This document shows positions 35,513 through 38,226 of a stretch of 64,000 nucleotides of DNA, piece by piece; position 1 is the first letter of the stretch, and every line of letters begins with the position of its first letter. The stretch is from Paenibacillus terrae (GTDB lineage Bacteria > Bacillota > Bacilli > Paenibacillales > Paenibacillaceae): the NCBI RefSeq assembly GCF_005217525.1, contig NZ_PNXQ01000014.1:273353-337352 (forward strand), read 5' to 3'. The position numbers and the translations under genes were made by a program. The notes under the pieces were generated by a model. The model saw nothing but the letters and a program-made list of their open reading frames with translations, did no database searches and had not been told where the DNA came from.

Positions 35513-36001
35513 TTAGGATGGGAAAAGTGTTTCGGAATCTGCGGAACCGCCATCACCAAGCCAGCGGTTAGGGCCTGCAAATGAGAAAGTTTTCGCGTTT
35601 CCAGTTATTTTAATATTAGCGATTTTCCAACCAGGTTTATATCCAGATCCATCAGTTCTAATCGTAATTTTTCTGATGTCACCAAGGTTGCTGGTGCTGA
35701 TTCTTGTTGTATCAGAATCTCCCTGTTCAAAGCTTCCATTGAGTGTAGCGGTAGCATAATCTCCATTAGAACCATACAGAGTTATAGAAATATTTGAATC
35801 TGTTCCAGCATCTTTAAGATTGGCTGTGTTTACAGTAACAACATATTCAACATTAGCAAAAGGTGTAACTGACTCTATACTTCTACTAGAGTCTTGAAAT
35901 GAACTATAAGTGTCACTTGTGACCTGATCGGCAAAAGAAGGCGCTGCGAAAGCTACAGATGAGATAAACAGTGCTGATGCTAGTAAAGATACTTTTTTCA
36001 T
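35513..36001 (-). CDS. Secreted PLAT/LH2-domain protein
   Basis: A 162-residue exported protein. Signal peptide residues 1-24 (MKKVSLLASALFISSVAFA then APSFA, type I cleavage after Ala). Residues about 50-135 match a PLAT domain: YVVTVNTANLKDAGTDSNISITLYGSNG, then a spacer and IRKITIRTDGSGYKPGWKIANIKI, a beta sandwich that binds lipids or membrane proteins. The C-terminal tail ends NRWLGDGGSADSETLFPS. It may be a bacteriocin-like or stress-induced surface protein; exact role unknown. RBS AAAGGTGGT. Confidence 0.8.
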   Translation of the reverse strand: MKKVSLLASALFISSVAFAAPSFADQVTSDTYSSFQDSSRSIESVTPFANVEYVVTVNTANLKDAGTDSNISITLYGSNGDYATATLNGSFEQGDSDTTRISTSNLGDIRKITIRTDGSGYKPGWKIANIKITGNAKTFSFAGPNRWLGDGGSADSETLFPS

Positions 36002-36402: not shown

Positions 36403-36431
36403 TTGACAGCACATTTGGACAGCAGTATGCT
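36403..36431 (+). promoter_or_regulatory. Promoter of M-box transcript
   Basis: TTGACA (36403-36408), 17 bp, TATGCT (36426-36431), placing the RNA start about 14 bases ahead of the riboswitch. Confidence 0.65.
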
Positions 36432-36451
36432 TGCTAGGGAAATATGGATGT

Positions 36452-36610
36452 CCTCGTTAGGTGAGGCTCCTATACGAACATAAGCCACTGCCCGGAAACA
36501 TCGAAAGATGCCAATGGGTATAACAGGAATTGCCGGATTAAGGCTCTTCTTAATGTGGCTAAAGAACTTTGGTTCTTTTACGTCGTATAGTGCTAAAGCT
36601 CGACTTGGGG
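36452..36610 (+). promoter_or_regulatory. M-box (ykoK) magnesium riboswitch
   Basis: The conserved M-box core is plain: CTCGTTAGGTGAGGCTCC, TATACGAACATAAGCC, CTGCCCGGAAACATCGAAAG, ATGCCAATGGGTA, ACAGGAA, TTAAGGC, TTAATGTGGC and GTGCTAAAGCTCGAC in the canonical order and spacing. Mg2+ binding compacts this RNA and favours termination. The expression platform is the hairpin at 36650-36685. The next substantial gene downstream is the DUF1003 membrane protein at 36932. Confidence 0.93.
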
Positions 36611-36649
36611 GAATCGGATATTTGCATGCCTTATCTTGCATGCAGAACG

Positions 36650-36685
36650 ACGCCCCTTCAGTTGAACTGAGGGGCGTTTTTATTT
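36650..36685 (+). terminator. Riboswitch-controlled terminator
   Basis: CGCCCC-TTCAGTTGAACTGA-GGGGCG followed by TTTTTAT. Its position 40 bases after the M-box core fits the Mg2+-dependent terminator. A preceding GCATGC...GCATGC pairing (36624-36643) may belong to the antiterminator switch. Confidence 0.8.
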
Positions 36686-36778
36686 CAATGTGTTAGGTAT
36701 TGGCAGTGACATGGTTCTTGTGAGATCAGTAAAATATGGAGCCAACAATACGATATGGGAGAGGGGGGTAACCATTCT

Positions 36779-36892
36779 ATGAGTAGTCGAAGTTCGACTG
36801 AACCGGATCCAGAGCCAGTGAGTCTATTGGCAGTCGGGTTAAAACTAGATACCGTAATTGAGTATGGTTGCAGCTCCTCTCCTACGGGGTAG
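36779..36892 (+). CDS. Putative 37-aa leader-region peptide
   Basis: ATG behind GGGAGAGGGGGG reads MSSRSSTEPDPEPVSLLAVG... for 37 codons and stops 40 bp before the DUF1003 gene. Located after the M-box terminator, so it would be made only at low Mg2+. Not recognised; could be chance. Confidence 0.3.
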   Translation: MSSRSSTEPDPEPVSLLAVGLKLDTVIEYGCSSSPTG

Positions 36893-36931
36893 TATTGGGC
36901 CTGACTGCCTTAAAACAAGGAGGTAGTCGAC

Positions 36932-37489
36932 ATGTCAAAAATGAATTTTTTTCAAAAAAAGCAGCAAAATAAAAGTGCTGCTCAAATTCAAGGCTTTGAT
37001 ATTGAATTGAATCCGGAAAATACTCGTCGTATTGATCGGCTAGTCGATAGTTACGAAAATAGCATTCTTTCTCATTTAGATGAAGCGTACCAAAGAACGA
37101 CAAGCTGGCAAGATCGTCTTGCTGATCGGATTGCATCATTCGGCGGTAGCTGGAGATTTATTACTTATTTTGCTATCTTTCTGACCATCTGGATACTCTT
37201 GAACAGCTTGCCGTTTACTCGCTTTCATTTCGATGAACCTCCATTTATCTTGTTGAACTTGTGTTTGTCTTTTATCGCAGCATTCCAGGCTCCAGTCATT
37301 ATGATGAGTCAGAACCGCCAAGCTGCAAGGGATAAGCATGAATCGATCATTGACTTCGCGATCAACTACAAAGCGGAACAAGAGATTGACGATATGCAAA
37401 GCCACCTTCATCGGATCGAAGGCGAGCTGATTGAGATTAAAAAACTTTTACTTGTTCTAAACAACCGAATGAATGAAGAACACAAATGA
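36932..37489 (+). CDS. DUF1003 membrane protein under M-box control
   Basis: A 185-residue protein. Soluble N-terminal part (about 1-75), two TM helices (FITYFAIFLTIWILLNSLP and EPPFILLNLCLSFIAAFQAPVIMMS, the DUF1003 hallmark with PFILLNL and PVIMMSQNRQAARD), then a charged cytoplasmic coiled coil (about 140-185, HRIEGELIEIKKLLLVLNNR). Function of DUF1003 is not established. Control by a magnesium riboswitch strongly suggests a role in Mg2+ or other divalent ion homeostasis. ATG behind AACAAGGAGG. Confidence 0.85.
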   Translation: MSKMNFFQKKQQNKSAAQIQGFDIELNPENTRRIDRLVDSYENSILSHLDEAYQRTTSWQDRLADRIASFGGSWRFITYFAIFLTIWILLNSLPFTRFHFDEPPFILLNLCLSFIAAFQAPVIMMSQNRQAARDKHESIIDFAINYKAEQEIDDMQSHLHRIEGELIEIKKLLLVLNNRMNEEHK

Positions 37490-37932: not shown

Positions 37933-38226
37933 TTATTCCAAAGACTCTACCCAGTTTTTAAAAATAATCAGCAACTCATTTAGATTTTGTACACCACCGT
38001 AGCCTTTAAATGTTGTTTCGGCTTTTTTACAATGAATCCAATCTGATTCACTTCGTTCGACAGATATCGGTTCAAAATCTTTTTCAGCCAGTATCGTTCC
38101 TTCTAAATGAATGAATATAGACCAGCCTGGATTATCCAGTGTTAAAATCTGTATTCCTTCTGCATGTTCCCAGACTCCATTACAATGTTGAGCAAACCAA
38201 TTTTGTATCCATGTCATAGTATCCAT
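37933..38226 (-). CDS. Imm53 family immunity protein (orphan)
   Basis: A 97-residue acidic protein matching the Imm53 pattern: WIQNWFAQHCNGVWEHAEGIQILTLDNPGWSIFIHL, then ERSESDWIHCK and FKGYGGVQNLNELLIIFKNWV. Imm53 members neutralise polymorphic toxins of neighbouring cells. No toxin gene lies next to it in the window, so it appears to be an orphan immunity gene, a common arrangement for protection against kin. A GAGGT site is 11 nt before ATG 38226. Confidence 0.8.
   Translation of the reverse strand: MDTMTWIQNWFAQHCNGVWEHAEGIQILTLDNPGWSIFIHLEGTILAEKDFEPISVERSESDWIHCKKAETTFKGYGGVQNLNELLIIFKNWVESLE

Follow-up and report, generated by a model that had tools for sequence, protein, structure and literature searches.

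A magnesium riboswitch and a putative acidic-proline leader peptide upstream of a DUF1003 gene in Paenibacillus terrae

The stretch of DNA analysed here (the window) comprises 64,000 nucleotides of a contig of Paenibacillus terrae (NZ_PNXQ01000014.1, positions 273,353 to 337,352). Between its positions 36,403 and 37,489, an M-box magnesium riboswitch is located upstream of a gene encoding a DUF1003 protein, and a short upstream open reading frame (uORF) with an acidic-proline motif is found between the terminator of the riboswitch and this gene. Two physically different Mg2+ sensors on one mRNA probably control the DUF1003 gene, namely the M-box terminator and a translational attenuator resembling those of MgtL and MgtQ. 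The computed basis of this reading consists of sequences, conservation, the coding pattern of the uORF, predicted pairings and the sharing of the uORF with CorA genes. The following features were assigned to the locus:

36403-36431, plus strand: promoter-like site P1 (TTGACA-N17-TATGCT) for the M-box transcript, 10 of 12 consensus matches
36446-36618, plus strand: M-box (ykoK leader) magnesium riboswitch aptamer (RF00380, 150.7 bits)
36597-36621, plus strand: 3' strand of the aptamer, predicted antiterminator via pairing with the 5' arm of the terminator (duplex -20.9 kcal/mol)
36654-36682, plus strand: intrinsic terminator, stem 36654-36674 followed by a T run (sequence, pattern search, computed pairing)
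36706-36735, plus strand: candidate promoter P2 (GTGACA-N18-TAAAAT) between terminator and uORF (pattern search)
36759-36768, plus strand: Shine-Dalgarno-like stretch of the uORF, GAGAGGGGGG (sequence, leader alignment)
36779-36892, plus strand: uORF of 37 codons, MSSRSSTEPDPEPVSLLAVGLKLDTVIEYGCSSSPTG (leader comparison)
36800-36817, plus strand: EPDPEP, uORF codons 8-13, MgtL-like acidic-proline motif
36829-36840, plus strand: segment A, GGCAGTCGGGTT, inside the uORF just past the motif; predicted pairing with segment B frees the ribosome-binding site (RBS)
36898-36911, plus strand: segment B, GGCCTGACTGCCTT, predicted to pair with A or C
36917-36928, plus strand: segment C, AAGGAGGTAGTC, Shine-Dalgarno sequence of DUF1003 within a predicted sequestering hairpin
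36932-37489, plus strand: gene of the DUF1003 protein, 185 amino acids (PF06210, 115.5 bits)

The M-box covers the Rfam covariance model over its full length (model positions 1-169 of 169) with a score far above the gathering score of 44, and it is the only RNA match at gathering level in the window; no other M-box was found in the genome. The complete M-box core claimed in a preliminary description of this DNA is thereby confirmed. The promoter and terminator platform described there is also present, though as bare patterns both sites are not clearly above chance (promoter-like pattern, 5 found and 5.1 expected in the window stretch; terminator-like pattern, 2 found and 1.2 expected). The fold of the region comprising M-box and terminator has a z-score of -4.49. 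In the window, the antiterminator duplex and the terminator hairpin were computed at -20.9 and -19.0 kcal/mol, and in all nine M-box-DUF1003 loci examined the duplex ranges from -18.1 to -28.8 and the hairpin from -9.3 to -20.9 kcal/mol (energies without shuffle control); the competing terminator and antiterminator that mark an M-box switch were found in all nine as computed pairings. The ten M-box-DUF1003 loci all have a full-length aptamer, with scores of 145.9 to 151 bits, and by computation the switch looks intact in the nine examined.

The gene behind the M-box encodes the only DUF1003 protein found in the genome (curated cut-off of PF06210, 27.4 bits), and the next downstream open reading frame of at least 50 amino acids, an Imm53 gene, is encoded on the minus strand. 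Both the family assignment and the lack of a transporter gene behind the M-box had been stated in the preliminary description and hold. An AlphaFold2 model of moderate quality (mean pLDDT 74, pTM 0.41) contains two shorter helices (residues 59-71 and 74-92) and a long one (106-184). This layout is compatible with the two transmembrane helices and the coiled coil proposed earlier. No relative in the PDB was obtained by sequence profile or by Foldseek with the AlphaFold2 model. The DUF1003 family is named in a study on streptococcal evolution (PMC9163064), and a CiaR-regulated DUF1003 gene has been likened to a multistress protein of Lactococcus (PMC4839699); the word magnesium is absent from the main text of either article.

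The peptide encoded by the uORF begins with MSSRSSTEPDPEPVSLL, and EPDPEP at codons 8-13 represents the kind of acidic-residue repeat within the first 30 residues that is looked for in leaders of the MgtL/MgtQ type. The uORF was first spotted by eye, and motif filters for further loci were written afterwards. It is present in all ten M-box-DUF1003 loci (in locus L046 as an EREPEP version) and also at DUF1003 loci without a linked M-box (L045, L049, L050, L051, L056, L058, L062, L161, L167 and L172). Named organisms with a uORF before a DUF1003 gene lacking a linked M-box are Paenibacillus sp. HGH0039 (EPEP) and, with an ESD version, Scopulibacillus daqui, three Gottfriedia, Peribacillus loiseleuriae and two Bacillus. 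The aligned leaders have a Shine-Dalgarno-like stretch in front of the uORF; in L046 it is located farther out and was missed by the motif filter. For comparison, 31 leaders were used (36 minus the near-copies L003, L068, L080 and L081 and the unrelated uORF of L022; L174 and the CorA leaders of the own genus are outside this set). An acidic residue is encoded by codon 8 in 30 leaders and by codon 10 likewise in 30, codons 9 and 11 encode proline in 24 and 26, and EP[DE]P is found at codons 8-11 in 23 of the 31, with varying synonymous codons. Ten of the 25 DUF1003 loci of the order search (L043-L067) carry the uORF. Among 80 related DUF1003 loci, 22 were inspected, of which eight have the uORF, 13 do not and one (L087) is without an identified gene start; the remaining 58 are distant loci outside this count.

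The coding pattern was assessed with 23 lineages chosen by the analysts without selection by motif. Over uORF codons 2-12, pairwise differences amount to 713, 878 and 1420 at codon positions 1, 2 and 3 (2783 comparisons each), a third-position total reached by 149 of 20,000 column shuffles, and at codons 8-11 the respective numbers are 139, 149 and 665. A smaller count with 13 leaders gave 208, 309 and 459 of 858. This third-position excess is the pattern expected from selection on a peptide. The uORF frame is stop-free over its first 15 codons in all 31 leaders, compared to stops in the two other forward frames in 22 and 31 of them, and length differences among Gottfriedia-type leaders are 3 nucleotides. 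Taken as a leader of the MgtL/MgtQ type, the uORF appears coding in its N-terminal part only.

Two alternative pairings are predicted around the RBS of the DUF1003 gene, either of A (36829-36840) with B (36898-36909) or of B (36903-36911) with C (36920-36928). A:B energies range from -20.5 to -37.4 kcal/mol and are better than those of shuffled A (p < 0.05) in 20 of 25 leaders, including the window (p 0.003); nine of 11 CorA and later leaders pass this test. When B was picked solely by its fit to C, A fitted better than shuffled A (p < 0.05) in 15 of 26 lineages (taken from 40 leaders; the pooled p of 8e-17 disregards shared ancestry and is given no weight). The pairing letters vary by lineage, GGCAGTC/GACTGCC in one version as opposed to GAGGAAGTC/GACTTCCTC in another, and in the six closest sequences 95.8 and 94.4% of the cells pair, far above slid pairings. 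The predicted fold of the whole leader is slightly more stable than that of shuffled sequences (z -2.83). Mutually exclusive structures as in MgtL/MgtQ-type leaders were found here as predicted pairings only. On this basis, the A:B versus B:C architecture appears well supported across the family and moderately supported for the window alone.

A survey of M-boxes linked to DUF1003 genes had been proposed in the preliminary description. Within the genus, M-box and DUF1003 were each found in seven of 75 genomes; the seven are identical, and in each of them the M-box lies upstream of DUF1003 on the same strand. The order search covered 296 genomes and gave 67 M-box matches in 45 genomes and 95 DUF1003 matches in 69 genomes, and coordinate comparison places an M-box just upstream of DUF1003 in nine of the 45 genomes, which belong to four genera (g1, g3, g31, g36). 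These nine together with G008, which is absent from the order draw, provide the ten M-box-DUF1003 loci. No M-box was found upstream of DUF1003 in 40 further DUF1003 loci. Among 13 genomes of the genus tested, CorA is present in all, while MgtE (PF01769) was found in none of the seven with M-box-DUF1003 compared to five of the six others. If the seven genomes are one lineage, this MgtE pattern amounts to a single contrast. In Alicyclobacillus sacchari, an M-box (L076:5010-5175) is found approximately 2 kb downstream, not upstream, of DUF1003.

The leader element is shared with CorA genes. A sequence-only profile (R1) of 63 nucleotides around the uORF start, trained on 17 leaders, was run against 694 genome draws, 296 from the order and 398 from the class with partial overlap, as a limited first look with rough E-values. 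The order yielded 21 matches in 19 genomes, of which 18 are located before DUF1003, two before CorA (L165, L166) and one is a decayed copy (L168). In the class, eight of 398 genomes were matched, the own one included; six of the seven matches outside the order are located before CorA (L169, L170, L171, L173, L174, L175) and one before DUF1003 (L172). Outside the training set and its near-copies, 12 matches remain, eight at CorA, three at DUF1003 and the decayed copy. Seven CorA leaders contain EP[DE]P, 151-159 nucleotides before the gene start used, and the CorA leader of L174 has MDSSPS instead of EPDP approximately 295 nucleotides before the gene. Since CorA is a family of Mg2+ transporters, the element common to both serves a known Mg2+ gene too. 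The decayed copy (L168, G224:C75) is a P2-uORF leader without an intact DUF1003 gene directly behind it and resembles L047.

In the own genome, a CorA gene is preceded by a distinct uORF of similar style (MEGDPSPNRRR), and a [DE]GDPxP uORF precedes this CorA gene in all 13 genomes of the genus tested (L193, L194-L206; MEGDPSP in seven, MDGDPRP in six). Before MgtE genes (L176-L180) no uORF was listed by the filter. No acidic-proline uORF was found at the other CorA copy (L181-L192), where small TTG- or ATG-started open reading frames occur in L187, L189, L190, L191 and L192. In L022, an M-box is located before an MgtE_N-CBS gene (PRC start below the cut-off), with a uORF reading MDPDPSIERC (1804-1866), the same A:B:C logic and nine of nine A:B and B:C core pairs. 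The uORF behind the M-box of L210 reads MDPEPTSIVRC; together with that of L022 it is the closest in look to MgtL.

In the mechanism proposed here, the M-box would fold at high Mg2+ and the terminator at 36654 would form, while at low Mg2+ the antiterminator would form and RNA polymerase would read past the 36654 terminator. With ample Mg2+, ribosomes would finish the EPDPEP uORF and cover segment A (codons 17-21), and B would close over the RBS of DUF1003 (OFF). With low Mg2+, ribosomes destabilised at the acidic-proline motif would fall off, A would pair with B, and the RBS would be free (ON). Low Mg2+ would open both locks and thereby induce DUF1003, which would be a membrane protein acting in Mg2+ homeostasis. 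What we infer by analogy is the drop-off of ribosomes, the role of Mg2+ as signal, the direction of switching and the function of DUF1003. DUF1003 is a strong candidate for Mg2+ homeostasis; possible roles are Mg2+ transport, aid to a transporter or membrane protection at low Mg2+. A part of DUF1003 in Mg2+ homeostasis, under M-box control, had been proposed in the preliminary description. The proposal is strengthened by the co-occurrence in the same seven genomes of the genus, by three further genera and by the leader shared with CorA. The picture of control given there was incomplete, the uORF switch (36779-36928) between terminator and gene and the promoter-like site past the terminator (36706-36735) having been overlooked.

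Several observations weigh against the dual control of DUF1003. The A:B shuffle test was not passed by L046 (p 0.74), L049, L051, L055 and L068, and the Shine-Dalgarno hairpin (-10.4 to -22.5 kcal/mol) reaches z-scores of -2 or lower in just 12 of 25 leaders (window, -1.72). With B chosen by its fit to C, 11 of the 26 lineages fail, among them the window (p 0.14) and L046 (p 0.67), and the CorA leaders of the own genus give p values of 0.07 to 0.63. In the six closest sequences the changes are one-sided, compensatory double changes are absent, and none of the covariation measures rises above shuffles. The motif itself has exceptions, ESD in five leaders, EEGP in one, VPEP in one and EREP in L046. 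Three loci (L006, L007, L008) carry a frameshift in the C-terminal half of the uORF, so that only its first part seems to matter as a peptide. The R1 uORF is present at just 18 of the 95 DUF1003 matches of the order, and no Mg2+ transporter gene adjoins DUF1003 among 80 loci searched by phmmer with CorA, MgtE, MgtA, MgtC, Nramp and MgtE_N queries (two Nramp matches approximately 2 kb off, L074 and L075, and one weak CorA match, L113, were obtained). Finally, P2, if active, would feed the uORF switch and bypass the M-box in seven of nine loci.

The last point leads to the view that DUF1003 is driven mainly from P2, with the M-box as a relic or minor input, which we consider unlikely. P2-like sites (GTGACA- or GTGGCA-like, 18-nucleotide spacer, TAAAAT-like; 8 to 10 of 12 matches) are present in seven of the nine loci examined (the window, L005, L006, L007, L008, L047 and L055), whereas none was recovered in L004 and none is present in L046, and loci with uORF and DUF1003 and without an M-box exist. 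Against this stand the full-length, high-scoring M-boxes of all ten loci and the terminator/antiterminator pairing in the nine examined. In L046, moreover, the gap between terminator and uORF is 44 nucleotides and leaves no room for a P2-like site, so that DUF1003 should depend on the M-box transcript there. An independent promoter past the terminator had been named in the preliminary description as a finding that would speak against M-box control: in the window a candidate exists, in L046 none fits. Less probable still is a chance neighbourhood in which the M-box belongs to no gene and DUF1003 is unrelated to Mg2+. The seven genomes of the genus may be one lineage and their co-occurrence one event, and elsewhere DUF1003 showed no link to Mg2+ genes in the neighbourhood search, but the adjacency recurs in three further genera, and the sharing of the leader element with CorA already disfavours this view to the point where it is hardly tenable.

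It is also conceivable, and rather improbable, that the uORF is a real attenuator sensing another signal, such as the supply of charged tRNA-Pro, the activity of EF-P or ABC-F proteins, or ribosome-targeting antibiotics. Proline codons in leader open reading frames are described as able to report EF-P status (PMC6460261) and, in mgtP, charged tRNA-Pro (PMC8092293), and EttA is reported to affect MgtL translation (PMC11282234). All R1 matches save the decayed copy, however, precede DUF1003 or CorA, and ten loci are located behind an M-box. In addition, the five leaders with ESD among the 31 keep the acidic pair and have no proline at codons 9 or 11, and acidic destabilisation therefore fits better than proline sensing. 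That the conserved stretch is an RNA-only element, for instance another riboswitch, with an incidental reading frame, is very unlikely. Such an element would be in line with strongly conserved nucleotides such as ATGGGTAGTCGAAGT, with the loss of the C-terminal frame in three loci and with the z-score of the leader fold, but it is at odds with the third-position excess, above all at codons 8-11, with the stop-free uORF frame in contrast to the two others, with the 3-nucleotide length differences of Gottfriedia-type leaders and with the lack of an Rfam match. Dual control by M-box and uORF is the reading retained here.

Short open reading frames are also found behind other M-boxes. The order search gave 58 M-box matches without linkage to DUF1003, and in 45 of these a Shine-Dalgarno-like stretch and a uORF beginning M-[DE]-[SGPRC] occur within the next 420 nucleotides, compared to an expectation of 4.4 of 58 from shuffled sequences. 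The rule was set after the first 27 loci, of which 22 follow it, as do 23 of the 31 loci fetched afterwards; near-identical genomes occur in both sets. Most of these uORFs read MDSSPS- or MDSSSR-like (e.g. L031, L035, L041, L214, L232) and mostly lack the double acidic motif, and two read MDPDPS and MDPEPT. A second intrinsic terminator behind the uORF was found in 31 of 38 loci examined (taken from the 45; no shuffle control; L208 was read at a wrong start and two gave no uORF), and in 12 of them uORF and terminator arm are complementary beyond what shuffles give. Ten genes behind M-boxes were checked in Pfam, with P-type ATPase, ABC permease and MgtC among them, and the others were named by likeness. 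We lean towards the broader view that tandem Mg2+ sensing by an M-box terminator and a translated uORF attenuator may be general in the order, with DUF1003 and CorA as an RBS-sequestering EPDP branch and DUF1003 as a new family of Mg2+ homeostasis.

Several M-boxes precede ABC-type permease genes (BPD_transp_1; L016 and L030 Pfam-checked, L017, L023, L032, L034, L038 and L040 by likeness), and these permeases are a candidate Mg2+ uptake system outside the usual list of M-box targets. Other M-boxes are located before a RodA/FtsW-type gene, a YmaF gene and two response regulator genes (L019, L020 and L028 Pfam-checked, L029 by likeness). Tandem double M-boxes occur in G133 (C1:2677344-2677835 and 2903087-2903581), one of the two pairs being followed by an Nramp gene, and divergent M-box pairs are found at G280:C210:121628-122144 and G249:C1:588161-588678. 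In the window, the neighbours of the locus are genes for a PLAT-domain protein with a signal-like start (35513-36001, minus strand) and for the Imm53 immunity protein (37933-38226, minus strand). A second known riboswitch in the leader (36700-36931) was considered and rejected, no Rfam family being found at a useful score.

The DUF1003 locus resembles known M-box riboswitches in its full-length aptamer, intrinsic terminator and computed antiterminator pairing, and differs from them in its target and in the second, uORF-based switch downstream. With MgtL (mgtA of Salmonella and E. coli) it shares EPDP early in a short leader open reading frame, a Mg2+-related gene downstream and the expectation that efficient uORF translation means OFF. 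The window uORF, however, belongs to Bacilli, comprises 37 codons and carries the motif at codons 8-13, compared to EPDP at codons 2-5 of the full MgtL peptide, and the pairing at DUF1003 points to RBS sequestration, in contrast to Rho-dependent termination at MgtL. Common descent with enterobacterial mgtL or mgtQ is not claimed, the uORF being too short for a sequence test, and convergence is as likely.

Targets described for the M-box are mgtE, corA, mgtA or Nramp-related genes (PMC4072509). In the enterobacterial MgtL, ribosomes are reported to drop off at EPDP at low Mg2+, upon which mgtA is expressed (PMC11282234). In MgtQ, the acidic codons favour the stem that releases the RBS of mgtB, so that, as proposed here, ribosomes on an acidic-codon uORF choose between stems hiding or freeing the next RBS (PMC8092293). 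MgtQ has eight codons and a four-region design (1:2/3:4 versus 2:3; PMC8092293), while in the window the choice is between A:B and B:C, segment A is part of the uORF past the motif, and an M-box is found upstream. CorL is similar in that corA expression in enterobacteria is inversely related to corL translation, and different in having fewer acidic or proline residues and in working with Rho (PMC11552253). A conserved uORF (rv1805A) behind an M-box is also described for pe20 of M. tuberculosis; there the M-box controls translation of the uORF, and the terms mgtl and ribosome destabilization are absent from the main text of that article (PMC12810186).

In a full-text search with most subscription papers outside its coverage, no literature was found that joins DUF1003 with magnesium or the M-box riboswitch, that concerns COG4420, or that treats M-boxes together with upstream open reading frames and magnesium. 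Both elements, M-box and uORF, belong to known types. What was not found in print in the searched literature is their combination in series, an EPDP device before CorA and DUF1003 in Bacilli and the link between DUF1003 and Mg2+. In the sources seen, Mg2+ sensing by ribosome destabilisation is described for enterobacteria and for an mgtQ-like open reading frame in Brucella. If the dual control proposed here is true, Bacilli would also sense Mg2+ by ribosome destabilisation on an acidic-proline leader peptide, and this peptide sensor would be placed downstream of a riboswitch that responds to the same ion by a different principle. The widespread, uncharacterised DUF1003 family would gain a concrete, testable function, and the leader signature could be used to search for further Mg2+ genes.

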